Below, piece by piece: positions 6,371 through 54,762 of a DNA stretch of 61,432 nt; within the stretch, counting starts at the first letter, position 1; every line of letters starts with the position of its first letter. The notes under the pieces are model-generated. The model saw only the letters and a program-made list of their open reading frames with translations. It was not told the origin of the DNA and did not search any database. The DNA is from Klebsiella pneumoniae (GTDB lineage: Bacteria; Verrucomicrobiota; Verrucomicrobiia; Limisphaerales; SXTU01), in the NCBI GenBank assembly GCA_943330855.2, contig CALQJI020000025.1, forward strand, positions 1 to 61,432, in the 5' to 3' direction. A program made the translations under genes and the position numbers.

Positions 6371-7522
6371 TCACAGTTTTCGCACGTGGAGGTTGCCGAA
6401 GTCCATCCCGGCTCCGGTATCCTTGAGGCCGAACGCACCTTTGCCTGCGGGCACAGGCACGCGGGCGGTTTCCTTGTCGTTGAGGAAGACGATGGCTTCG
6501 GCCCCCTTCACCTGCACACGGACGCGGCCACCTTTGCCGGCTTCGAGGCCGGTCTTTACTTCTGTGCCCTTGCCGTCACGACCGCGGAGCAACAGAGCGG
6601 GAGCAGTGTCACCGGTCGCGCTCTTGCCCGCGCGAACATCCACGACGAACTCCACGTCGCCGAACTCGGCTTCGGTCCAGAGGGTTTGCTTCGCCGCGTC
6701 CGCACCCTCCTTCAGCACGAGCCGCCAGTCACTGGTCTGCCAACGCGTCTTCGCGTCGCCGGCGCTCTTCCAGCCGCGCAAGTCCACGCCGGTGTAGAGC
6801 GGTGCCCAGCCGGGGTCGAGCGGCGCGACGAGTTCCGGCGCGGGGTTGCTGGAGGGAAGCTCCTTGATACGGATGTTCCTGAACTCAACGGGCGCGCCCT
6901 CGCTTTCGAGCGCGAGATAGCCTTTGCGATAGTTGCACTCGTCGCCGCCGGAGACTTCCTTGCCGTTGACGTGCAGGCGGAGGGAGCCGTTGGTGCAGAC
7001 GACGCGGTAATGGTTCCACTCGGGCGAGGGCTTGCTGCGGTCCTCGCTGGGGAAGCTGCGGTCGCCGCGATGCTTGCCCAGCGGAATCATCTTCGCGCCG
7101 TGGATGGGGAAGACATCGCCGTGCGTGGTGAACCAATCGGACTTCTTGCCGTTCTGCTTCTCGTAGTTCGTGGCGTAACCGTGGTCGAGCACTTGCACCT
7201 CGATGCCGCGCAGGAAGGGCACGCCCGGCGCACTGATCGGCGAACCCCACATGAAGACGCCGGAGTTGCCGCCCGCGCTGAGGTGCCGCCACTCGACCTC
7301 CATGATGAAATTCTCGTAGTGCCGCGTGGTGCGCAGCGCCCCGACGGGCTTGCCAGTGCAGTGAATGACGCCGCCCTTCACGGTCCACGTCTCCGGCGCG
7401 CAGTTGATGTTCGTCCAACCGGCGAGGTCACGGCCATTGAACATGGAGACAAAGCCGTCGGCGTCGGCGGCAAAGAGCGGCAGAGCCAGAGCGGTGAGCG
7501 CGAGGGAGAACAGGTGTTTCAT
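6371..7522 (-). CDS. Exported DUF1080 (3-keto-disaccharide hydrolase-like) protein, two domains
   Basis: The 383-aa protein begins with a signal peptide (MKHLFSLALTALALPLFAADA). Residues about 25-215 form a typical DUF1080 concanavalin-like domain: FVSMFNGRDLAGWTN, GGVIHCTGKP and GGNSGVFMWG. Residues about 230-383 look like a second, shorter copy (WAPLYTGVDLRGWKS...). DUF1080 proteins are periplasmic or secreted glycan-active proteins, expanded in Planctomycetes and Verrucomicrobia, and some members hydrolyse 3-keto-glycosides. It is divergent from the DUF1549/1553 gene at 7718. Confidence 0.85.
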   Translation of the reverse strand: MKHLFSLALTALALPLFAADADGFVSMFNGRDLAGWTNINCAPETWTVKGGVIHCTGKPVGALRTTRHYENFIMEVEWRHLSAGGNSGVFMWGSPISAPGVPFLRGIEVQVLDHGYATNYEKQNGKKSDWFTTHGDVFPIHGAKMIPLGKHRGDRSFPSEDRSKPSPEWNHYRVVCTNGSLRLHVNGKEVSGGDECNYRKGYLALESEGAPVEFRNIRIKELPSSNPAPELVAPLDPGWAPLYTGVDLRGWKSAGDAKTRWQTSDWRLVLKEGADAAKQTLWTEAEFGDVEFVVDVRAGKSATGDTAPALLLRGRDGKGTEVKTGLEAGKGGRVRVQVKGAEAIVFLNDKETARVPVPAGKGAFGLKDTGAGMDFGNLHVRKL

Positions 7523-7717
7523 CGAGGGAGATTAGCAAGTTAGAAGGCGGCGTCCAACGCGAACGTGTGAAACGCCGCCCGGCCTGAGCCCTGTCCCCGC
7601 ACCGACACATCACCGGCTTCCAAATTGGCAGCGCGGGCAGAGTCCCGGTATGGAGGAACCCCAGATGCGCGCGTGAATGGTCGTTCGCCGGGCCAAGTCA
7701 TACTGCCCTCGCTCCCG

Positions 7718-10192
<2,475 letters not shown>

Positions 10193-40688: not shown

Positions 40689-41618
40689 GTGGCTCCTATT
40701 TTGGACAATCTCCCGCCGCACCGACACCGCATCTATGGCCTAACTGTCGCAACGTGGATTCCGTTTCCCGAATTGGAATCCGCGCCCGCCGACGCGCCTG
40801 TGGATGCGGTCTTCAGCGTGGGCGAGGTGCCAGCTCGGCTGGCATCGCCACAGCTTACTGGCGTGTGCTTCCAGACCGCGCCGGGTGAACTCTTGATGTG
40901 GGTGACAGAAGGGGCGCGCTACTTGGTCAAGGACGGACGGGAAATCATCGTCCAACCCAAGTCCGATACGCCGCTGGATGCGGTGCGTGTTTTGTTGCTC
41001 TGCTGGCCTTTGGGGGCGCTGCTCCTGCAACGACGACTCCTCCCCCTCCACGCCAGCGTCATCGCCACGCCGCGCGGCGCGGTGGCGTTTATGGGAGCGT
41101 CTCGGGCCGGAAAGTCCACCCTCGCGGCGCATTTCCGCAAGACGGGTTTCCGGGTGCTCTCTGACGACGTGGCTGTGGTTCAGTTCGCTCCCGATGGCCG
41201 GCCTTGGATTGCCCCCGGCTATCCCCAGTTCAAGTTATGGCCGGAGGTGGCAGAAAAGCTCGGGGAAGACGCCGGGCGGATGCCCAATCTGTGGCCCAAC
41301 CACCCCAAGCGGTCCCTCTCGTTTCAGAGTGAGTTTCACTCCACACCACTCCCGGTCGCCCGGCTCTACGTTCTGGAAACTGTGGCGGCCGATGAAGTTC
41401 AGTTGAGCCAACTCACCCCCTTCGAAAGCATACGTGCGCTGGCAGAGCACACGTATCGTGCCCAGTTTGTCCCGGGACTCGGTCTACAGGGCAGCCACTT
41501 TCAAGCCATCGCCCGCCTGGCGGACGCCGTGCCCCTCACCCGCGTCAGCCGACCAGCCCAAGGCTTCCAACTGGAGAGGCTCACCACCGTGCTGGCGGCA
41601 GACTTTTGCACGGCGTAA
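40689..41618 (+). CDS. HprK-like kinase of a lasso-peptide cluster
   Basis: The 309-aa protein resembles HPr kinase/phosphorylase C-terminal domains. P-loop GASRAGKST is at 136-144, preceded by LHAS (H121) and followed by VLSDDVAVV at about 156-164. The N-terminal 100 residues have no HprK-N similarity I recognise. In lasso clusters such as paeninodin, kinases of this type phosphorylate the C-terminal residue of the precursor. The start is a GTG at 40689. It is the first gene of the rightward arm. Confidence 0.82.
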   Translation: MAPILDNLPPHRHRIYGLTVATWIPFPELESAPADAPVDAVFSVGEVPARLASPQLTGVCFQTAPGELLMWVTEGARYLVKDGREIIVQPKSDTPLDAVRVLLLCWPLGALLLQRRLLPLHASVIATPRGAVAFMGASRAGKSTLAAHFRKTGFRVLSDDVAVVQFAPDGRPWIAPGYPQFKLWPEVAEKLGEDAGRMPNLWPNHPKRSLSFQSEFHSTPLPVARLYVLETVAADEVQLSQLTPFESIRALAEHTYRAQFVPGLGLQGSHFQAIARLADAVPLTRVSRPAQGFQLERLTTVLAADFCTA

Positions 41619-41731
41619 TCGCAGCGGATTAAGTTCAATCTTCCGCTCCTCTAGGCCGTGTGTTCTAATCCTTGCCAACGGCTCAATCCGGTGCCATGTC
41701 AACACTACCCCGACCTCGAGTCCTTCAAATT

Positions 41732-42037
41732 ATGCCACACACAGTTTTGAACTTGGATTCTCAGGTAGCCCGATCATCCGAATTGATCAGCACCTCGGTA
41801 AGCGGCCAGACGGCGTTGATGAGCGTCACCAACGGAGCCTACTACGGACTGGACCCCGTCGGCAGCCGCATTTGGGAACTGATTGTTGAACCCAGAAGGG
41901 TCAGTTCGGTCTGTGAACAGCTCCTTGCTGAATTCGCCGTTGACCGGGCCAAGTGCGAAACCCAAGTGCTCGCCTTCCTCCAGCGACTGGCCAATGACGG
42001 ACTTCTGAGCGTGAGCCATGAGCAGCCGCCTGCTTAA
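41732..42037 (+). CDS. Lasso peptide B1 / PqqD-family leader-recognition protein
   Basis: The 101-aa protein is a RiPP recognition element of the PqqD fold, with the family block VTNGAYYGLDPVGSRIWELI at residues 32-51 followed by a helical C terminus. It would bind the precursor leader and present it to B2 and C. The ATG at 41732 gives the family N terminus; an in-frame ATG at 41696 would add 12 residues and cannot be excluded. It overlaps the B2 gene by 20 nt. Confidence 0.85.
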   Translation: MPHTVLNLDSQVARSSELISTSVSGQTALMSVTNGAYYGLDPVGSRIWELIVEPRRVSSVCEQLLAEFAVDRAKCETQVLAFLQRLANDGLLSVSHEQPPA

Positions 42038-42461
42038 ACTTGGGCGATGCAACTGGAGCGACCAGGCGCTGCTGATGGAGACGCTGGCTTGGCTGTGCAG
42101 TGCCCGGCTGCTGCTCCTGCTCCTGCCGTTCCGATGGCTGGCCCCGAGGCTGGGCAAGGCCATGACCGAATCGCCGTCGGCAATTTCCCTGTCTGAACGG
42201 GAGCTTGCCCTGAAAGTCTCTTGGGCCGTGCAGTCCGTAGCCGCACACGTCCCGCTCGGCTTCGTCTGCCTCCCGCAAGCGATTGCCGCCAAGTGGATGC
42301 TCCGCCGTCGACGTCTCGCCACCACGCTCTACCTCGGAGTTGCCACCCCTGAGCGGACTAAGCTTACTGCTCATGCTTGGCTGCGTGCCGGTGACAAAAT
42401 ACTGACGGGACGGGAGGCGAGCCTCCAGCACACAACCATCGCGTGGTTCGGCGACAAATAG
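42018..42461 (+). CDS. Lasso peptide B2, transglutaminase-like leader peptidase
   Basis: The 147-aa protein has a hydrophobic N-terminal part (LAWLCSARLLLLLLPFRWLA), then the B2 papain/transglutaminase-like core: catalytic C84 in GFVCLPQAIAAKWMLRRR, H119 in TAHAWLRAG, and D126. It would cleave the leader from the precursor so that the cyclase can act. This motif set is highly characteristic of lasso B2 proteins and is the strongest single marker of the cluster. Confidence 0.92.
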   Translation: MSSRLLKLGRCNWSDQALLMETLAWLCSARLLLLLLPFRWLAPRLGKAMTESPSAISLSERELALKVSWAVQSVAAHVPLGFVCLPQAIAAKWMLRRRRLATTLYLGVATPERTKLTAHAWLRAGDKILTGREASLQHTTIAWFGDK

Positions 42462-42555
42462 GGCACTTGACTCACGAACGCCAACTGGCGGACACGGACG
42501 ATGGTTGGGGTGGAATTTCTTTCCCGCCCCGACCGAAAATAGTCCAAAAAAATGC

Positions 42556-42585
42556 TTGACCTAACCATCGAAATCCAAGACAACT
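42556..42585 (+). promoter_or_regulatory. Possible promoter of the lasso precursor
   Basis: TTGACC at 42556-42561 is followed, after 18 nt, by ACAACT at 42580-42585, a weak -35/-10 pair. An A-rich run (CCAAAAAAATG) lies just upstream. It sits 32 nt before the precursor ATG in a locally AT-rich stretch (about 40% GC in 42541-42600). It is weak evidence, but precursor genes often have a strong separate promoter. Confidence 0.3.
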
Positions 42586-42616
42586 GAAGCCGGTTTTTGA
42601 AACAGCTAAACAATTC

Positions 42617-42757
42617 ATGAAAAACACCACCGAAACGCAGATCACGCAGCCCGAAAAGAAGCAGTGGAACGAGCCCACTATGACGCAACTATCCATCAAC
42701 TTTGAAACGCTGATTGGCAACGGTGTCGCTGCGGACGGACTCATGAATAACACCTGA
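42617..42757 (+). CDS. Candidate lasso peptide precursor (46 aa)
   Basis: The ORF encodes 46 residues: MKNTTETQITQPEKK, then QWNEPTMTQLSINFET, then LIGNGVAADGLMNNT. It lies 155 nt after B2 on the same strand and is closed by a strong terminator. The leader half has KKxWxxP (W17, P20), matching the Tyr-x-x-Pro motif that lasso B1 proteins bind. T31 is the only leader Thr that could be penultimate to a plausible core. That would give a core IGNGVAADGLMNNT with D40 at position 8; starting at G34 would put D40 at position 7. It ends in Thr. No clear Shine-Dalgarno is visible. Confidence 0.75.
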   Translation: MKNTTETQITQPEKKQWNEPTMTQLSINFETLIGNGVAADGLMNNT

Positions 42758-42782
42758 GATTTTAGCGATCCCAGATTTTCCT

Positions 42783-42817
42783 ACCACGCTTGGTTAATTG
42801 CCAAGCGTGGTTTTTTT
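42783..42817 (+). terminator. Intrinsic terminator after the lasso precursor
   Basis: A perfect 11-bp stem ACCACGCTTGG (42783-42793) / CCAAGCGTGGT (42801-42811), loop TTAATTG, is followed by an uninterrupted run of seven T (42811-42817). It lies 25 nt past the precursor stop. The gap from here to 43012 shows no further gene I can support. Confidence 0.95.
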
Positions 42818-43012
42818 GTGCGACCCATCAGGTTGCCGGGCATCGGCTCAGTTTGATCATCGCTTGTGCAAGCTGGTTTTTTCATCACGCCATCAAGCCT
42901 AGACGGGACACGGATTCTCTCAATGGGGTGTTACCCTATCAAATCAGTGCTGAGACTGCCCGCTACCAAACCACGTTGAGCAAGGATTGAACGCGTCCAA
43001 TCCGCACGGCTG

Positions 43013-44926
43013 TCAAAAGCGCAGGAGAAACAGTCCCGTCATCGTCCCGCGGGTAATCAGCGTCACGCACTCCGCCGTGTTGTTCGCGTTGATTCCGTAT
43101 TGCAGTGAGTCCAGCACCCGACGCAGACGAGGCACGTCCACCACTTCGCTCGCCAAGGAAGAACGCTCCATCCGCTCGAAAACCTCCCGGAACTCGTCTG
43201 CGGAAGCTCGGATGCGGTAGCCGATGTCCATCGCCTGCTTGCCACGCTTGGGATTGAGGCGGACGGCGTCCGGGAGCAATCCCTGCATCGCCCGCCTGAG
43301 CAGCCATCGCGTTTGTCCTCGGTGATAGAACTGGCTGTTGGGCACCCGCAGGCAAAACTCAATCAATTCAGGGTCCATTGTCGGATCACGCACATCCAAA
43401 CCGTAGGCGGCACCCAGTTCTGCCCAACCGCTGCCCACAGGTGTCTTGGACAGGTTCATGACCGCCAGTCGCTCCTGCCGCGGGTCCGGGAAGGAAAAAC
43501 TGGGGTTGTGCCCCATGTCCTGCATGCGCTCCCGCAAATTGAGTCCTCGGGCAAATTCAGCATTGATCGCCGAGTAGTTCAACCACGGTTCCTGCCAGTG
43601 CCCCCTCCGGTGCCGCCAACTCTCCCGTAGCGGCAACAGGGCCGGCCTCAGCAGATGCCGGCGGATAACCATCGCGGGGGTCGCCTGAAGTTCCTTGGCA
43701 CGGCCCCACAGCCCCCGCCAGCGCCCCCGTAGCAAGTCGGGCCACAAGCTTTCCGGCCAGCCAGTCCATGAGACACCGCCGTTACCGAACTGGCCCGTCA
43801 ACAAAACCCCGATCCCTCGTGCCCGTGCCTGTTCCAGCAGGTCCACGATCCAAAAGTGATTCACCGCCCCGTGCCCCGGTTCGTCGCAGATTTCCAAAAC
43901 CCGTGCGAAACCCGCCAGCGGAGAAACGTGCTCCCCCCGGACATACTGCACATCCAAGTTTCCAAAGTGAGCCCGATTGGCTTCCACCAGCGGTTGCTCG
44001 TCAAAGAACAAACCGGGCAATTCAAACTCAATCTTGTGCAGCGGCACCGAGGAAAACGCCGCCAGACGGCGTCCCTCGGCACGAAGCTCCCGTGCCGCCA
44101 AGGCACAGACCGAGCCAGAATCAAGCCCTCCGCTCAACGTTCCGCCCACCGTCCGACCGCCGCGCATCCGCACCCGCACGGCGCGTGTGAATTGTTCTCG
44201 GAACGCCTCAACATAATCATCGTCGGACTTGAGTTCCAAGGGGGCCAACGTCTCGGGAAACCAATACCGCCGCTTCGTGATTTGGCCGTCTGCCCGGAGG
44301 GTGAGGGTATGTCCTGGTTCCAGACGCACGATGCCTTCATACCCGCACAAATTGCCCCGACCACTCCAGGCCGTCAGCACTTGCGCAACGCGCAGGAGGT
44401 TCGGACGGCGCGGCATTTCTGGCACGGCCAGCAGGGCCTTCACACAAGAGGCGAACGCAAACCATCGCGGATTCGCGTGATAATAGAGGGAACTCACGCC
44501 GCACGGGCATTGCGCCAGAAACAGGCGGCGCTCACGGGATTCCCATATGGCGAACGCGAAGTCGCCGCGCAAATGAAGCACACAGTCCTCACCCCATTTC
44601 TGGAATGCTCGCAGAATCAGCTCACCGTCCGGCACCGTGGCGTGATTGTCCTCCGCAACTGCGAGTTGGGTTGCCAACTCCTCCCGATTGTCCAAGCGGG
44701 CGGCCGCCGTGAGGACTAATCCGCTGTCTGAATCCCGCCGGGGCAGCCGCTCATGCCGACTCTCCGGCGTGGCGTGCCGCATCAAATGCCCCAGTCCCAC
44801 GGTGCCATCGTGCCACAAGCCGGCACCGTCTGGCCCCCAGTAGGCCATCGCTGCGCGCATGCCTTCGAGGGCGTTGCGCTCCACGGGCCGTCCATCCAGC
44901 GAGTAATATCCGTAAATTCCACTCAT
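43013..44926 (-). CDS. Lasso peptide cyclase (asparagine synthetase homologue, protein C)
   Basis: The 637-aa AsnB-like protein has an N-terminal class II glutaminase-like domain starting MSGIYGYYSLDG. Residue 2 is Ser, not the catalytic Cys of true asparagine synthetases. The synthetase domain has the PP-loop GGTLSGGLDSGSVCALA. In lasso systems this enzyme adenylates the Asp/Glu side chain and closes the macrolactam. The ATG at 44926 gives the family N terminus; the frame to 44941 adds only MNPDR. It is convergent with the precursor gene. Confidence 0.88.
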   Translation of the reverse strand: MSGIYGYYSLDGRPVERNALEGMRAAMAYWGPDGAGLWHDGTVGLGHLMRHATPESRHERLPRRDSDSGLVLTAAARLDNREELATQLAVAEDNHATVPDGELILRAFQKWGEDCVLHLRGDFAFAIWESRERRLFLAQCPCGVSSLYYHANPRWFAFASCVKALLAVPEMPRRPNLLRVAQVLTAWSGRGNLCGYEGIVRLEPGHTLTLRADGQITKRRYWFPETLAPLELKSDDDYVEAFREQFTRAVRVRMRGGRTVGGTLSGGLDSGSVCALAARELRAEGRRLAAFSSVPLHKIEFELPGLFFDEQPLVEANRAHFGNLDVQYVRGEHVSPLAGFARVLEICDEPGHGAVNHFWIVDLLEQARARGIGVLLTGQFGNGGVSWTGWPESLWPDLLRGRWRGLWGRAKELQATPAMVIRRHLLRPALLPLRESWRHRRGHWQEPWLNYSAINAEFARGLNLRERMQDMGHNPSFSFPDPRQERLAVMNLSKTPVGSGWAELGAAYGLDVRDPTMDPELIEFCLRVPNSQFYHRGQTRWLLRRAMQGLLPDAVRLNPKRGKQAMDIGYRIRASADEFREVFERMERSSLASEVVDVPRLRRVLDSLQYGINANNTAECVTLITRGTMTGLFLLRF

Positions 44927-45089
44927 GCGATCCGGGTTCAACGAAGGGACGGAATGCGGCCCTTCAGCTCACATCTTGGCTTATCAAGCCACCGCACGAC
45001 TCTAGCCATGAAGCGAGACCCCGCCAAGGATTAGGATCGTTGATCCGGGAGAATGGGCCGTGTCCGTCGGCGGGAATCGCCGTCAAACG

Positions 45090-46280
45090 CTAGCGGTGCC
45101 GCATGCGCCTGCGCAACCACAGCAGCGGCGCGGCTGCATAGTAGAGCGCAAACAACCGGTCCGGCAGCCGCAGCATCTTCCAGTTGGCCGGCGACATGAG
45201 GCGAGGCCGCAGCACGGCGGCCTTCGCGGACCAGGCCCGGCGCAGTCGTAGTTGGTAGCGGGTTTGGCGTAGCAATTCCCGCAGCCCCGGCTGGTCCGCC
45301 TCAGCCCGGTTCATGCGCCGCAGCGCCGAGTGGACGAGCCAGTTCACCCGTGCCGCGTGCGCCGCCGGCACGCGCACCGGCTCAGGCGTCGGAATGCCAA
45401 ACAGCGTTTCCACCAGCCGCGCCCCTTGCCAAACGGACGCCTCCACGCCGCACGCGCGGGCCGTCCGCATCACCTGGTGCCAATCAACTCCGCCGTGCAA
45501 CAGCAGCCGCGCCACGTCCACGAGCCAGAACAGGCGAAACCATTCGTGGCCCGCGCCGTGCACGAAAAGGTAGAGCGCCTCCGTCTCCGCAGGCAGCCGC
45601 GCCAGTTCGATGCCACCGAGCGTCTCCCGTGCGCCGGCTTTCAGCCACTCGTCGAAGGCCTGACACCCCAGTCCCTCCAGCCGCCACTCGACCTCGATGC
45701 GCACACCAGTGGTGTCGTTGAAATACTCGAACTCGTGCCTGAGCCGCTGGTATTCGCGCCACTGCCGGGGCGTCAGCTCGAAATCTGGCTGCGAGCGGCG
45801 GCAGCCGGCGGCACGCAGCACCGCATCCGCTGGTGCGAGCTGTTCCGGTGCGATGAGCAAATCCAGATCGCCCGCATGCCGTGCGCCCACATCGCCGTAA
45901 AGTGAACGCGCGAGCAAAGGGCCTTTCACACTCAAGAACGGAATGCCCGCACTCGCGAACAACCGCGCGATGCGCACCAACTCTGCCGACCGGACCAGCG
46001 CCAGCCTCGCCGTGCGCCGGGCCGTCGCTGTGAGTTGCTCCCGCACTGGATCGGGCAGCGCCGCGCGCACGTCTCCGACAAGGCGATGTTGCAAAAATGC
46101 CCCCACGCGATGCCGCGTGAGGCTCTCTCCAAACGCGGCGGAGTCCACGTCGGCAGGCCATTGGAAGCTCTCCGCTCCCGCTGTTCCCAGCGCCACACGC
46201 AGCAGTTGCACCAGCGCGCTCAACTCCGGTGGCCACGCGGCCACGCGAGGGGACAGTCGATCTGGCAGCGCGGCGTTCAT
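45090..46280 (-). CDS. Nucleotidyltransferase family protein of the lasso cluster
   Basis: The 396-aa NTP_transf_5-type protein has FLSVKGPLLARSLYGDVGAR then HAGDLDLLIAPEQL, where DLD supplies the metal-binding acidic pair of the nucleotidyltransferase fold, and RIEVEWRLEG the third acidic region. Such proteins recur in kinase-containing lasso clusters. The start is the ATG at 46280, overlapping the ABC transporter stop (ATGA). The modified target is unknown; it may act on the peptide or a carrier. Confidence 0.82.
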   Translation of the reverse strand: MNAALPDRLSPRVAAWPPELSALVQLLRVALGTAGAESFQWPADVDSAAFGESLTRHRVGAFLQHRLVGDVRAALPDPVREQLTATARRTARLALVRSAELVRIARLFASAGIPFLSVKGPLLARSLYGDVGARHAGDLDLLIAPEQLAPADAVLRAAGCRRSQPDFELTPRQWREYQRLRHEFEYFNDTTGVRIEVEWRLEGLGCQAFDEWLKAGARETLGGIELARLPAETEALYLFVHGAGHEWFRLFWLVDVARLLLHGGVDWHQVMRTARACGVEASVWQGARLVETLFGIPTPEPVRVPAAHAARVNWLVHSALRRMNRAEADQPGLRELLRQTRYQLRLRRAWSAKAAVLRPRLMSPANWKMLRLPDRLFALYYAAAPLLWLRRRMRHR

Positions 46281-48061
46281 GGCAAATTCGTTCCAGCGGA
46301 CATCAGCTTGCGGAACGCCCCGCCTTCGCGCTGGGCCAGTTCCGCCGGTGCGCCGCACTCCACCACGCGCCCCTGGTCCAACACGATGACTTGGTCCGCG
46401 TTCTGCACTGTGGAGAGCCGATGCGCGATGATGACGATGGTCAGTTCGCCGTGAAGCCGCTCGATGGCCTGCTGGATAAGCCGCTCATTCTCGTGATCCA
46501 GCGAGCTGGTCGCCTCGTCCAGCAGCAGCAGCGTGGGACGCCGCAACAGCGCGCGGGCAAGCGTGAGCCGCTGGCGCTCACCACCGGAGAGGCGCACACC
46601 CCGGTCACCCACCACGGTATCGAGCCCTTGCGGCAGCCGCGCGACGAACTCCGCCGCGGCGGCGGTGCGCAGGACGGACTGCAACTCGTCCTCAGTGGCG
46701 TCGGACCGCGCCCACAAAAGATTCGCGCGGATGGTGTCGTGGAAGAGAAACGGCTCCTGCGGCACGTAGCCGATGGAGCTGCGCCATGCAGCCAGCCGGT
46801 GCTGAACACCTTCGAGCGGCTCGCCATCCACCATCACGCGGCCGTCCGTTGGCGTGAGCAGGCCGAGCAGGAGATCGGCAATCGTGCTCTTGCCCGCGCC
46901 CGACGCGCCGACAAGCGCGGTCATGCGTCGCGCCGGAACGGTGAGGCTGACGTTCCGCACCACGTCCTGGCCGGCAGCGGGATCGTAGCGGAAGGAGACG
47001 TTGTCGAGGCGCACCTCGCGCTGGAGTTCGAGCGCGAGCGAAACATCGGCCACGGCCTCACGGTCGGCGTCGAGTTCGGCCCGCAGCTTCTCCACGGCAT
47101 CGAATGCGGGCTGGTAATGGACGATCTGCTGCCATGCGCCTTGAATGGCGCCGATGCGCGGCAGGAGGCGGGTGAAGACAAAAACCATGAGCACGAGTTG
47201 TGCGGTGCCAAGCCGCGCCCATGCCACCGCCACATAGAGAAAGGCCATCAGCGCCGTCCAGCCCGCCAACTCGAAGAACACGCGCGAGGCGGAGAAGACG
47301 TGGCGCGTGGCGACGAAGTGCTCGGCGATGGAGTGCGTGGCACGCCGAAACAGATCGAGGTGATGGCCCCCGCACCCGTGGCTCTTGGCGACCTTGTAGC
47401 CCGCGAGATGCTCGGCGATGGCGGCGCTCATCTCCGCGCGGCATAGCTGGCTGGCCTTGCCGGCCTCGTGCGCGCGGCGGTTCAACGGGCGCAACGCCAC
47501 CGCCACCAGCACTCCGCACCCCAGCGCCATCGCGGTGAGCGGCGGCGAAACCATGAGCGCCACGGCCAGATGCACCAGCGCCAGCCCGGCCATGCCCGCG
47601 AGCGCGACGCCCTGCTGCGCCGCGAAGCCCGCGTTGTCCACCTCCTGCGTGAGCGCGCGCGTGAGGTCCGCCGCACGCAATCGCGTGAACGCCAGCCAGC
47701 GCGCGTCCACTAGCGCCGCGTAAAGCCGGTCGCGCAGATGCGCAGTGTAGGCCGCCTCGATGCGCGCGTTGTGATGGTCCGCAACGCGGCGCAGCACCGC
47801 CTGCACGACGAGCAGGGCAACGAAACTACACAGCACCAACTCGAAGGCGGGTGTGACGCCGAGCGCGGAGAAGATGTTCCGCCAGACGCTGGAGAGACCC
47901 GCCGCCGCACGCACTTCGCCCAGGCCGAGCAGCTCCACCAGCGGCATGAGCAGCAACAGACCCGCCGCCTCCAGCAACGCGACCGCCACCAGCAACGCGA
48001 CTGACCCGCCCACACGCCAACGCGCGTAACTTAGAAAGCTGCTGAGGAAGGGCGGTAGCAC
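46277..48061 (-). CDS. ABC transporter, lasso peptide exporter type (protein D)
   Basis: The 594-aa protein fuses a six-helix membrane domain (about 1-320) to an ATPase: Walker A GASGAGKST, Q-loop YVPQEPFLF, signature LSGGERQRL, Walker B LLLLDEATSSLD and the switch His in IIAHRLSTV. Its length fits LapD/McjD-like exporters that confer immunity and export. It starts at a GTG (48061). It is first in the leftward arm, coupled to the nucleotidyltransferase. Homodimerisation is expected from the family. Confidence 0.88.
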   Translation of the reverse strand: MLPPFLSSFLSYARWRVGGSVALLVAVALLEAAGLLLLMPLVELLGLGEVRAAAGLSSVWRNIFSALGVTPAFELVLCSFVALLVVQAVLRRVADHHNARIEAAYTAHLRDRLYAALVDARWLAFTRLRAADLTRALTQEVDNAGFAAQQGVALAGMAGLALVHLAVALMVSPPLTAMALGCGVLVAVALRPLNRRAHEAGKASQLCRAEMSAAIAEHLAGYKVAKSHGCGGHHLDLFRRATHSIAEHFVATRHVFSASRVFFELAGWTALMAFLYVAVAWARLGTAQLVLMVFVFTRLLPRIGAIQGAWQQIVHYQPAFDAVEKLRAELDADREAVADVSLALELQREVRLDNVSFRYDPAAGQDVVRNVSLTVPARRMTALVGASGAGKSTIADLLLGLLTPTDGRVMVDGEPLEGVQHRLAAWRSSIGYVPQEPFLFHDTIRANLLWARSDATEDELQSVLRTAAAAEFVARLPQGLDTVVGDRGVRLSGGERQRLTLARALLRRPTLLLLDEATSSLDHENERLIQQAIERLHGELTIVIIAHRLSTVQNADQVIVLDQGRVVECGAPAELAQREGGAFRKLMSAGTNLP

Positions 48062-48821: not shown

Positions 48822-50672
48822 TCAATCCAGCTTGAAGCTCTCGATGTATTTCTTCCGCTCGCTTTCATCCTGCGCCGGCTGCTCGGTGCGGCGGAGCACG
48901 CAGTTTTCCAGCACCAGCACGTCCATGTCCGACGCACGGAAGCAGCGGTAGGCATCCTCGGGCGTGCAAACGATCGGCTCGCCGCGAATGTTGAAACTGG
49001 TGTTGATGATCACGCCGCAGCCGGTCTGGCGCTTGAACTCCTTCATCAGCCGCCAGTAGCGCCCGTGCCTCTCCTCGTCCACCGTCTGGATGCGCGCGCT
49101 CATGTCCACGTGCGTGATGGCCGGCAGCGTCGAGCGCGGGACGTTCACACGCTTCCGCAGGTCGGGGTCGCGCATCAGTGCGGTCTGTTCCGGTGTGAGC
49201 GGGAGCCACTGATCCTTCTTCACGTCGGCCACCATGAGCATGTAGGGCGACTCACGGTCATGGTCGAAATACTTCGCCACGTCCTCGATGAGCACGCACG
49301 GGGCGAAGGGCCGGAAGCTCTCGCGGAACTTGATGCGGAGGTTCATCTGCGACTGCATCGCGGGGCTCCGCGGGTCGCCGATGATGCTGCGGGCACCGAG
49401 AGCGCGCGGGCCGAATTCCATCCGCCCGCTGAACCAGCCGATGACTTTCTCCGAGGCCATCTCCTGCGCCACGGCTTCCAGGAGCGCGGGTTCCTGTTCG
49501 TAGAACGTGTAGCGGACCTGCTTGCCGTCGAGGAAGGCGCGGATTTCCTCGTTCGAAAATTTTGGGCCAAGGAGAGAGCCTCTGAGGAAATCCTTGCGAT
49601 ACGCAACGTGCGGACGCGGCTTGTCCAACAACTGGTGCTGCACGAAGAGCGCCGCGCCCAGCGCACCACCGGCGTCTCCCGAGGCTGGCGTGACGAACAC
49701 GTCGTCGAAGATTCCCGCGCGGAGCAACTTGCCGTTGGCCACGCAGTTAAGCGCGACGCCGCCGGCGAGACAGAGAAACTTGCTGCCGGTGAGTTCCTTC
49801 GCGTGCCGTGCCATGCGCAGGACGACTTCCTCTGTGACCGTTTGAATCGAAGCAGCGAGGTCCATTTCCCGCTGCGTGATGGCGGACTCTGGGTCGCGCG
49901 CAGGGCCGCCGAAGAGCGAGGCGAACTTGGCGTTCGTCATCGTCAGCCCCTGGCAGAAGTTGAAGTAGCTCATGTCCATCGCCAGCGAGCCGTCAGGCTT
50001 CACGTCTACGAGGTGCTTGAGAATTCTGTCCGTGTAGCGCGGCTCACCGTAGGGCGCGAGGCCCATGAGCTTGTATTCCCCGGAGTTCACCTTGAAGCCG
50101 CAGAAGTAAGTCACCGCGCTGTAAAGCAAGCCGAGCGAGTGCGGAAAGTGGAGTGTCTTGAGGAGTTTGATTTTGTTCCCCTGCCCGTGCCCAATGGTCG
50201 CCGTGTCCCACTCGCCGACGCCGTCGAGCGTGAGAATGGCGGCGTCTTCGTAAGGCGACGGGAAGAAAGTGCTGGCCGCGTGCGCTTCGTGGTGGCCGGT
50301 GAACGCGATGCGTTTCGTGTAGCGGCCACCGAGCGCCTTCCGAATTTCGCGGGGCAGATGCAGCTTGGTCTTGAGCCACAGCGGCATCGCCATCATGAAC
50401 GACTGAAGGCCGACGGGTGCGAAAGCGAGATACGTCTCCAGCAGGCGGTCGAACTTCTGGAGCGGCTTGTCGTAGAAGACGACGTGGTCGAGTTGCTCGG
50501 GAGTGAGGCTGGCCTCGCGCAGGCAGTAGTCCACCGCGTGCGTGGGAAACGCGGCATCGTGCTTGATGCGCGTGAACCGCTCCTCCTGCGCAGCGGCGAC
50601 GATGTCCCCGTCCACGACAAGCGCGGCAGCGCTGTCGTGGTAGTAAGCGGAGATGCCTAGGATGCGGCCCAT
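48822..50672 (-). CDS. Carbamoyltransferase (NodU/CmcH family)
   Basis: The 616-aa protein shows the N-terminal Kae1-like domain MGRILGISAYYHDSAAALVVDG, GHHEAHAASTFFPSP, LTLDGVGEWDTATI and LCLAGGVALNCVANGKLL. The C-terminal domain has RMEFGPRALGARSIIGDPRSP and VIINTSFNIRGEPIVCTPEDA. It transfers carbamoyl groups to sugar or natural-product hydroxyls. In this operon it probably carbamoylates the polysaccharide. The ATG is at 50672. Confidence 0.94.
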   Translation of the reverse strand: MGRILGISAYYHDSAAALVVDGDIVAAAQEERFTRIKHDAAFPTHAVDYCLREASLTPEQLDHVVFYDKPLQKFDRLLETYLAFAPVGLQSFMMAMPLWLKTKLHLPREIRKALGGRYTKRIAFTGHHEAHAASTFFPSPYEDAAILTLDGVGEWDTATIGHGQGNKIKLLKTLHFPHSLGLLYSAVTYFCGFKVNSGEYKLMGLAPYGEPRYTDRILKHLVDVKPDGSLAMDMSYFNFCQGLTMTNAKFASLFGGPARDPESAITQREMDLAASIQTVTEEVVLRMARHAKELTGSKFLCLAGGVALNCVANGKLLRAGIFDDVFVTPASGDAGGALGAALFVQHQLLDKPRPHVAYRKDFLRGSLLGPKFSNEEIRAFLDGKQVRYTFYEQEPALLEAVAQEMASEKVIGWFSGRMEFGPRALGARSIIGDPRSPAMQSQMNLRIKFRESFRPFAPCVLIEDVAKYFDHDRESPYMLMVADVKKDQWLPLTPEQTALMRDPDLRKRVNVPRSTLPAITHVDMSARIQTVDEERHGRYWRLMKEFKRQTGCGVIINTSFNIRGEPIVCTPEDAYRCFRASDMDVLVLENCVLRRTEQPAQDESERKKYIESFKLD

Positions 50673-52971: not shown

Positions 52972-54762
52972 TCAGTTCCGGGCAAACTGCGCATGGACGA
53001 ACTTCGCCCAGCCGCGAAGACCCCGCTCTGCTGGCGTGTTATCACTTCCGTCCAGGAGCCAGTCGCGCACCGGAATGAAGAAGCCCGTCTTGGGGCGGTT
53101 GAGCACGGCGGCTGGCAACGGGCGGGCCGGGCTACGAGCAAGCGATTGCTTGCCGGGTGGGTGCGCGCCAGCGAGCAACGGTGCGAGCGTCCGCCACAAC
53201 GCCACGTCCACGAGCGGCACGCGAACCTCGATGGAGTGCGCCATGCTCGCCCAGTCCGCGTCGCGCAGGAGCTGGTTGCGCATATACCAAACGGCTTCGA
53301 GGGCGGAGACTTTTTGCCGGGATGTCGGCAGGGCCGCGTGCGTTTCGCGCAGCCGGAGCAAGGGTTGCAATTCGTTCCAACCTGCGCGCACCAAGTCGGG
53401 ATCGAGAAGGGCCGGCAGTTCCCACGGCATAAACATCCCGCGGCGTAACAGATACGCGCCGCCGGGCGTGCCGCCGTATTCCAGCAATCCAGCGTATTTC
53501 GGAGACGTGCGCTGCCGCAGCACGGGGGCAGCCACCACCCGGAACGCGCGCCCGAACCACGGCGCGTGACGGAAAGGCGCGAGCCAACGCGCGGCCCGAG
53601 GAACATCCCGGAAACTCGGATAACCGCCGAGCAACTCGTCTCCACCCAACCCGGAGAGCGCGACCTTCAGCCCGGCGCGACGCGCGGCAAGGCTAACGAA
53701 ATAAGTGTTCACCCCGTCGGTCGAGGGTTGGTCCATCGCACGGAGGAGCGCGGTGCGTTCGCTGTTAAAATCCTCCTTCGTCACCCAGATAGTCTGATGC
53801 TCTGCGCCATAGTGCCGCGCGACTTCCTCGGCCAGCGGCACTTCGTCGTTAGCCGTGCCGCGAAACTCGGTAAAGCCCAGCGTGACAGTGCGGAGCCGCC
53901 CGCCTTGCTCCGAGGCCAACCCTGCGAGCGCGGTGGAGTCCAGCCCAGCGGAGAGGAATACCCCGACGGGCACATCGGCGATCAGGTGATGTCGCACGGT
54001 GTCGGCAAACGCAGCCCGCACTGTGTCTACTGCTTGAGCGCTGCTGTCGAGCGCGTGGGGCGCGCTGAGAATTTGTCCGACGCTTCCGTGGGTTCCATTG
54101 ACTCGCGAGCCATCCGCGCCCGCCCACAGCCAGCCGCCCGCCGGCAGCGAGCGGATGCCGCGATACAGCGAATACGGCTCCGGCACGTGACCCCACAGAA
54201 AGAAGCCCACTTGTCCGGCGGGATCCAGAGCGGTGTCCACTCCACCGCCTGCGAGGAGAGACTTCACCTGCGATGCTGCGCGCAAGGTCTTGCCATCGTC
54301 CGCGACGTAGAGAGGCTTTATGCCAAAGGTGTCACGTGCGAGCAGCAGGCCTTGGCGTTCGTTGTCCCACAGCGCAAAGGCGAACATCCCGCGCAGCGTG
54401 CGCAGCATCTCTCGACCCTGCTCAGCGTAGAGATGCAACAACACCTCAGTGTCGCTGTTAGATCGGAAGCGCCGCCCGCGCGCCTCCAGCCCGGCGCGTA
54501 ACTCGCGGTGGTTGTAAATCTCGCCGTTGAAGACAATCACCAGCCGTCCATCCTCGGAACTCATCGGCTGAGCGCCTGCGGAGGAAAGGTCAATGATGGA
54601 GAGGCGGCGGTGTGCCAATCCCACGCGCCGATCGCTGGAGAACCAAAGGCCCGCACCGTCAGGGCCGCGGGCCGTCATCTGGTCGCGCATCCGTAGCAAC
54701 TCCGCCTCGTCCACCGGTGCAGCGGAGGAAGAGTGAGCAAAACAAACGGCGATGCCACACAT
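52972..54762 (-). CDS. asnB: Asparagine synthase (glutamine-hydrolysing), AsnB-like
   Basis: The 596-aa protein begins MCGIAVCF with the catalytic Cys2, followed by RGPDGAG, FNGEIYNHRELR and SDTEVLLHLY, so the glutaminase domain is intact. The synthetase domain has GVFLSAGLDSTALAGLA (PP-loop). In polysaccharide loci such enzymes may amidate uronic acid residues rather than make asparagine. Contrast the lasso cyclase at 43013, where residue 2 is Ser. The ATG is at 54762. Confidence 0.92.
   Translation of the reverse strand: MCGIAVCFAHSSSAAPVDEAELLRMRDQMTARGPDGAGLWFSSDRRVGLAHRRLSIIDLSSAGAQPMSSEDGRLVIVFNGEIYNHRELRAGLEARGRRFRSNSDTEVLLHLYAEQGREMLRTLRGMFAFALWDNERQGLLLARDTFGIKPLYVADDGKTLRAASQVKSLLAGGGVDTALDPAGQVGFFLWGHVPEPYSLYRGIRSLPAGGWLWAGADGSRVNGTHGSVGQILSAPHALDSSAQAVDTVRAAFADTVRHHLIADVPVGVFLSAGLDSTALAGLASEQGGRLRTVTLGFTEFRGTANDEVPLAEEVARHYGAEHQTIWVTKEDFNSERTALLRAMDQPSTDGVNTYFVSLAARRAGLKVALSGLGGDELLGGYPSFRDVPRAARWLAPFRHAPWFGRAFRVVAAPVLRQRTSPKYAGLLEYGGTPGGAYLLRRGMFMPWELPALLDPDLVRAGWNELQPLLRLRETHAALPTSRQKVSALEAVWYMRNQLLRDADWASMAHSIEVRVPLVDVALWRTLAPLLAGAHPPGKQSLARSPARPLPAAVLNRPKTGFFIPVRDWLLDGSDNTPAERGLRGWAKFVHAQFARN

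Follow-up and report, generated by a model that had tools for sequence, protein, structure and literature searches.

In the parts of the published accounts drawn on throughout this work, the reported sites of the lasso peptide kinases PadeK, ThcoK, SyanK and PsmK are C-terminal Ser residues, and PsmN is needed for the addition of hexoses (PMC9266682). BsfK phosphorylates Ser3 in the ring and accepts Thr substituted at this position (PMC10368454). The locus analysed here occupies positions 40689-48061 of a 61,432-nucleotide stretch of contig CALQJI020000025.1 (the window, meaning the whole of this stretch). It consists of two converging arms: K-B1-B2-A rightward (40689-42757), for a kinase, a precursor-recognition protein, a leader peptidase and a precursor peptide, and C, N and D leftward (43013-48061), for a lasso cyclase, a nucleotidyltransferase-like protein and an ATP-binding cassette (ABC) exporter. 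Judged from sequence, it is a real and probably working lasso cluster of the known kinase/N kind represented by paeninodin, pseudomycoidin and bsf. The reading favoured here, with a probability of about two in three, is that the cluster would make a lasso peptide with an Ile1-Asp8 ring and a phosphorylated C-terminal Thr, and that its convergent layout arose by replacement of the cyclase. What is new is the layout taken as history, and a predicted Ile1-Asp8 core that offers the kinase a hydroxyl on the C-terminal Thr and nowhere else.

The seven-gene cluster recurs in a congeneric genome

A first-pass annotation of this DNA had taken the genome to be Verrucomicrobia-like and had proposed a comparison of the neighbourhoods of B2 relatives. 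The genome is indeed one of the Verrucomicrobiota, and a second locus has the seven-gene layout. This locus, L002, lies in the Verrucomicrobia metagenome-assembled genome (MAG) NC_groundwater_1844 (G529) and is the nearest named relative; it has all seven genes in the arrangement seen in the window, likewise flanked by a DUF1552 gene on one side and a carbamoyltransferase gene on the other. Protein identity between the two is 91% for C, about 85% for K, 84% for N, 83% for B2, 80% for B1, 72% for A and 58% for D. The pairwise ratio of nonsynonymous to synonymous substitution rates (dN/dS) is 0.42 for D and 0.09-0.2 for each of the other six genes. The cluster is thus not a chance one, because seven genes recur in the same layout at 58-91% identity and with low dN/dS. 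D diverges from its L002 counterpart (58%) far more than its neighbours do (N 84%, carbamoyltransferase 92%), and its membrane half has a dN/dS of 0.72.

The cyclase tree conflicts with the kinase and leader peptidase trees

A sister module is present in the congener G526, where locus L158 carries K-B1-B2-C-A on a single strand. Its proteins are 59% (K), 61% (B1), 79% (B2) and 32-40% (C) identical to those of the window, and its precursor core, AQAMTGGDGMGAGTNLT, has Thr at the end. The L158 cyclase (7060-9167) is spread over two reading frames, through a frameshift or a sequencing error. In locus L130 of G528, too, a single strand carries B2, C and A.

The kinases of the window, L002, L158 and L129 formed one clade (Shimodaira-Hasegawa-like approximate likelihood ratio test, SH-aLRT, 100), and in the B2 tree the window, L002, L158 and L130 were grouped (support 91, not starred). 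The cyclases were arranged otherwise. Those of L129, L130 and L158 came together at 100, and those of the window and L002 joined P0026, named by its source as a Limisphaerales MAG, at 99-100; the window cyclase lies in an 11-row group that includes an Acidobacteriaceae locus. Forcing the cyclases of the window, L002, L158, L129 and L130 into one clade cost 103.8 log-likelihood units (approximately unbiased (AU) test, p = 3.4e-64). When three further G528 cyclases were added, they did not join the window cyclase and its placement was unchanged. Grouping of the window kinase with that of L003 was rejected (p = 0.004), as was its grouping with those of L003 and L005 (p = 0.0002).

The K and B2 trees disagree with that of the cyclases, and the D-N pair of G526 lies apart; the two arms thus appear to be modules that each have a history of their own. 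The simplest course of events is that a cyclase gene between B2 and A was lost and another was gained on the opposite strand, and the layout is most likely a record of module exchange and not of a division of labour. The latter had been the interpretation in the first-pass annotation, where the convergence was taken to separate precursor maturation from cyclisation and export. Such a functional meaning is countered by the one-strand sister module of G526 with its other cyclase and, in part, by L130 of G528; it is also countered by the tree conflict and by the position of D-N in G526 (L155), apart from the only B2 of that genome. That the convergent layout is unusual was borne out. Among 98 loci of relatives, 48 held both C and B2; the two were on opposite strands in 7 and converging in 4 (L002, L040, L062 and L112), as counted from the best C and the best B2 per locus with no distance limit.

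Predicted core of the precursor

Gene A (42617-42757, plus strand) encodes a 46-residue precursor, MKNTTETQITQPEKKQWNEPTMTQLSINFETL/IGNGVAADGLMNNT, and was assigned from its open reading frame (ORF), its NF033524 score, its L002 orthologue and the alignment described here. The score against NF033524, the paeninodin family, is 15.9 bits, below the curated cut-off of 27. Two of the 685 short ORFs in the window pass for the leader motif, the Thr and the Asp/Glu spacing, and only 42617-42757 lies within the cluster. It has an aromatic-xxPx-hydrophobic leader motif (WNEPTM), Thr at -2 (T31) and an acidic residue within core positions 7-9 (D40). When MKNTTETQITQPEKKQWNEPTMTQLSINFETLIGNGVAADGLMNNT was aligned with 17 precursors of relatives, W17, P20, T31 and D40 were invariant (n = 18). 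The 18 rows were hand-picked among candidates that had passed a filter on leader motif, T/I/V/L at -2 and D/E spacing, so the invariance of W and P, and partly that of T and D, was favoured by the choice; a separate ORF listing made without the T/D filter was read by eye and not counted.

Thr31 is the -2 residue in this alignment, so that the core would be IGNGVAADGLMNNT (42713-42754, plus strand), with a predicted ring from Ile1 to Asp8, the tail GLMNNT and Thr14 at the C-terminus. The L002 core is IGLNAAVDGLNTNT; between the two precursors dN is 0.13 in the leader and 0.40 in the core. Residue 1 is variable, being other than Gly, Ala or Ser in 26 of 53 labelled loci, the window and L002 among them. 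The labels for precursor, C-terminus and residue 1 were read by hand, one per locus, and the residue-1 analysis covers loci with a readable Thr -2 precursor, which leaves out, for example, L003 and L014. Beside K, C and N, the congener G528 has a tandem row of four lasso-like precursors with a YAKPxxQ leader, Thr and Asp (L166, G528:C441, 2649-3864).

The kinase and the C-terminal threonine

K (40689-41618, plus strand, GTG start) contains the motif GASRAGKST and has H121, G136, G141, K142, S143, D159 and D160, the kinase residues named for BsfK. Arg139 replaces the second Gly of the motif; at the same position, the G166A variant of BsfK retained activity (PMC10368454). The relation of K to HprK is weak by profile (TIGR04352, 33.5 bits vs a cut-off of 200), and the earlier description of an HprK-like kinase holds on its catalytic residues. 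K thus has the HprK-like residues of a PadeK/PsmK-type kinase. The C-terminal Ser acceptor of that type is absent, as the precursors of the window, L002, L158 and L129 all end in Thr; Ser is the last residue in L130 and L131, which belong to the same genus.

Thr14 is the only Ser or Thr of the predicted core and so its only hydroxyl. Thr is a possible acceptor because BsfK accepts it in place of Ser3. It is therefore a prediction, made from sequence, that Thr14 carries the phosphate, the natural sites of the characterised lasso kinases being Ser. On the kinase tree, a C-terminal Ser/Thr as against any other residue required 3 changes, and all of 300 shuffles required at least 8; 46 of the 62 rows were labelled, and the other 16 had no recognised precursor or mixed ones (e.g. 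L029, L038).

A different pattern was seen in ten loci with mostly Chloroflexota precursors and SLDT-type leaders (L007, L010, L016, L018, L023, L025, L028-L030 and L065). All ten have at least one core with Gly-Ser at positions 4-5, and a C-terminal Ser/Thr is mostly lacking. The kinases of these loci fall into a single group together with that of L033 (SH-aLRT 85) and may act on ring Ser5.

Gene products and signals of the two arms

The gene calls and landmarks named at first pass, from the kinase motif to the 4-nucleotide overlap in the leftward arm, were all recovered in place, and the lasso-type character of B1, B2 and C is supported by profile scores. B1 (41672-42037, plus strand; alternative first ATG at 41696) is a PqqD-like protein with 64.5 bits against PF05402 (cut-off 23.4) and 77.4 bits against NF033536, just below the cut-off of 80. 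B2 (42018-42461, plus strand) overlaps B1 by 20 nucleotides and has Cys84 and His119, as counted in the translation; its scores of 89.8 bits for PF13471 (cut-off 26) and 85 bits for the lasso model NF033537 (cut-off 33) are above both curated cut-offs. For C (43013-44926, or to 44941, minus strand), an AsnB-like protein placed by families and trees, the lasso cyclase model NF033535 is the best family at 415 bits, below the exception cut-off of 525. The locus thus has a transglutaminase-like Cys peptidase together with the precursor recognition element of B1, and an AsnB-like protein for which the lasso cyclase model ranks first. C begins MSGI, with Ser at the place of the glutaminase Cys, and the AsnB-like protein at 52972-54762 begins MCGI. 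A start without Cys is expected for a cyclase with no need of glutamine.

N (45090-46280, minus strand; an upstream GTG at 46358 is possible) is a PsmN-like protein of the NTP_transf_5 family, with 165 bits against PF14907 (cut-off 31.2), and is the single match in its own genome, which is 85.75% complete. D (46277-48061, minus strand) precedes it, and the D stop and the N ATG overlap by 4 nucleotides in ATGA. A sequence search of the PDB at E <= 0.1 gave no match for K, N or B2, and AsnB-like matches for C.

The rightward arm is closed by an intrinsic-terminator-like stem of 12 pairs with a T-run (42783-42811, plus strand), 3' of the 46-residue ORF, the arms of which are kept in L002. Upstream of A, a candidate promoter, TTGACC-17 nt-GACAAC, was read by eye at 42556-42584 (plus strand). 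A TTGnnn-17 nt-(G/C)ACAAC-like sequence was also seen by eye upstream of A in L002 and L158; a consensus promoter scan gave no site at 42556-42584.

The D-N pair and the neighbouring carbamoyltransferase gene

Beyond D, the window holds a NodU-like carbamoyltransferase gene (48822-50672), the product of which is 88-92% identical in the 5 other congeners having it. The AsnB-like protein at 52972-54762 is encoded nearby, and the region is likely a glycan locus.

D-N adjoins the carbamoyltransferase gene in G526 (L155), on a different contig from the only B2 of that genome; D adjoins it in G527 (L156), without N and without lasso genes. The identity of D to its relatives is 84% in G526, 76% in G527 and G528, 60% in G662, 58% in G529 and 50% over half the length in G524. 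A D of at least 50% identity is found in the same 6 of 11 congeners as the carbamoyltransferase, the genome of the window included, and B2 is present in 7 of the 11. At the level of the order, D was found at E <= 1e-110 in at least 7 of 320 genomes, of which 6 also have B2 and one, G481, does not; the order searches scored no more than 3-4 candidates in each genome, so such counts are lower bounds. G662, of another family, has D-N on a 3.3-kb contig and B2 and a lasso-type cyclase on other contigs, too short to show whether D-N adjoins them. N followed by D is also the pair found in the paeninodin-like loci L068, L071, L072, L076, L077 and L080.

D-N resembles a mobile unit, one that could act for the lasso system either in cis or in trans. 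The completeness of the system as K-B1-B2-A with D-N-C, claimed at first pass, is plausible, although N and D are linked to it by family and co-occurrence, from which their roles are inferred here. The PF14907 assignment holds for N, and D-N stands apart from the lasso genes in G526.

The DUF1552 site and the spread of B2 in the phylum

The DUF1552 gene that adjoins K in the window adjoins a different, one-strand lasso set in G525 (L159), and L159 shares 90% DNA identity with the window over 266 bases, ending at about 40565. Read by eye, L159 (G525:C194, 3-3166) holds B2, B1, K and the start of C on one strand, along with a truncated extra B1-like frame. This set suggests repeated cassette exchange at the DUF1552 site, which has apparently been home to more than a single lasso cassette. 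G526 and G524 have a large same-strand gene directly upstream of the DUF1552 gene instead. A clean insertion site from DUF1552 to the carbamoyltransferase was ruled out; the two are on separate contigs in G526, and the flanks differ. The earlier remark that few lasso systems have been described in the phylum fits the literature, as far as it is drawn on here, though a sample of 387 genomes from the phylum included 17 with a B2 domain above the cut-off.

Alternative explanations

The convergent layout could be attributed to simple inversion, C being the original cyclase of the K-B1-B2-A module and the C-N-D arm merely flipped. The 7 loci with C and B2 on opposite strands come from several phyla, as would suit such flipping; yet the window cyclase is only 32-40% identical to that of the G526 sister module, where B2 is 79% and K 59% identical, and the single-clade arrangement of the cyclases was rejected. 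Inversion is thus unlikely. A fusion of two unrelated MAG fragments between A and C would also account for arms of different histories, as MAG contigs can be chimeric, but an identical A-terminator-C junction in L002, another genome of the genus (A 72%, C 91%), makes this highly improbable. As to the product, a core beginning at Gly34 (GNGVAADGLMNNT), which would put Leu at -2 and close a 7-residue ring between Gly1 and Asp7, was the initial guess from BsfA spacing and was dropped after the alignment of relatives. Gly is common as residue 1 of lasso peptides. BsfA has Tyr at -17 and Ile at -2 (PMC10368454), and the W, at -17 in such a core, would match that spacing. Such a core appears improbable nonetheless, as the invariant T31 and D40 of the 18 precursors point to Thr -2 and an 8-residue ring in the nearest kin, and residue 1 is often not Gly, Ala or Ser. 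The main rival concerning D-N is a role in the glycan/carbamoyltransferase locus, which would leave K-B1-B2-A and C as the lasso system. It draws on D lying beside the carbamoyltransferase gene without lasso genes in G526 and G527, and on the exact match of the two across congeners. The recurrence of N-D in paeninodin-like loci, the presence of D-N, B2 and a lasso-type cyclase in G662, and the co-occurrence of D with B2 in the order, G481 apart, speak against it, and it is judged less likely than not, though a serious contender.

Several points weigh against cyclase replacement and the predicted product. The trees were quick ones without bootstrap, with long branches flagged, and the cyclase clade for the AU test was defined after the trees had been seen. 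For B2, a short and long-branched alignment of 135 columns, grouping with L003 was not rejected (p = 0.305), and the L003 cyclase is nearer to that of the window. The L158 cluster may be broken or misassembled, because its cyclase is split over two frames, only one of which entered the trees. A remnant of the older cyclase was sought between B2 and A, and none was found (best E 0.20). Deep paralogy with lineage sorting would yield identical trees, and G528 holds several cyclases. The link between residue 1 and the cyclase is weak: 12 changes were counted against a mean of 18.0, and 2 of 500 shuffles were as low. A strict dictation of residue 1 by cyclase clade was rejected on this signal. Ile1 is a prediction from the alignment, and the kinase site is not set by family, because BsfK acts on ring Ser3.

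Proposed route and its implications

Under cyclase replacement, an ancestral cyclase gene between B2 and the precursor would have been lost and replaced by one of another lineage on the opposite strand, and a switch of residue 1 from Ala to Ile would have accompanied that of the cyclase. B1 would bind the leader and present it to K and B2; K would phosphorylate Thr14, and B2 would cut after Leu32, with Thr at -2. C would activate Asp8 and join it to the Ile1 amino group, closing the ring. N may attach a sugar to the phosphate, as PsmN does, and D would export the product. The full sequence of events, a cyclase transplanted into a resident kinase-leader-peptidase-precursor module and fitted by the Ala to Ile change to give a phosphothreonine-tailed Ile1-Asp8 lasso peptide, is proposed tentatively, at somewhat less than even odds.

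If cyclase replacement is true, the locus is a natural experiment on which parts of the lasso machinery are exchangeable. Only the ring-closing half (C) would have been exchanged, the leader-reading half (B1, B2 and K) having been kept along with its leader, and the altered core residue 1 would mark a possible seat of cyclase specificity. If the transplant also holds, lasso clusters would evolve by independent swapping of leader-reading and ring-closing modules, residue 1 being where the two meet. Two features of the product are predicted and can be checked by mass, a phosphothreonine in a lasso peptide and a macrolactam closed on Ile1. The calculated [M+H]+ values are 1328.626 for the 14-residue lasso, 1408.593 with phosphate and 1570.646 with phosphate and one hexose, against 1215.542 for a 13-residue core starting at Gly1.

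Relation to described systems

Among the open-licence papers listed in the literature searches, judged by titles and the openings of abstracts, no account of this cluster, of a lasso cyclase swap or of a lasso phosphothreonine was found. Metanodin resembles the predicted product in having a ring residue 1 other than Gly (Asn, against Ile predicted here); its cluster is gammaproteobacterial, and the main text of its account mentions neither a kinase nor a nucleotidyltransferase (PMC12670498). The bsf cluster of Bradymonas sediminis shares the gene set A, B1, B2, C, D, K and N, with a separate B1, and its kinase is like K in the His, the P-loop Gly, Lys and Ser, and the Asp-Asp residues. BsfA has Ile at -2, Gly1, a C-terminal Asp and a phosphorylated ring Ser3, whereas Thr at -2, Ile1 and a C-terminal Thr are predicted for A; the parts of the bsf account drawn on here describe neither a convergent layout nor a cyclase swap, and expression of bsf in several hosts yielded no product lighter by 18 Da (PMC10368454). 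The pseudomycoidin (psm) system of Bacillus, like the window, has a kinase and a nucleotidyltransferase-like N, and its product is phosphorylated at the C-terminal residue, as is predicted here. That residue is Ser in pseudomycoidin and Thr in the window, and the psm N adds hexose whereas the window N is known from its family (PMC9266682). Paeninodin (pade) of Paenibacillus and the paeninodin-like loci share with the window the separate K, B1 and B2, the leader W/YxxPxL...T and the C-terminal hydroxy residue. Unlike the window, the paeninodin-like loci L066-L068, L071, L072, L075-L078 and L080 have C-K-B1-B2 on one strand, and ten paeninodin-like precursors have a 9-residue ring starting with Ala, Gly or Leu, where an 8-residue ring starting with Ile is predicted for the window.

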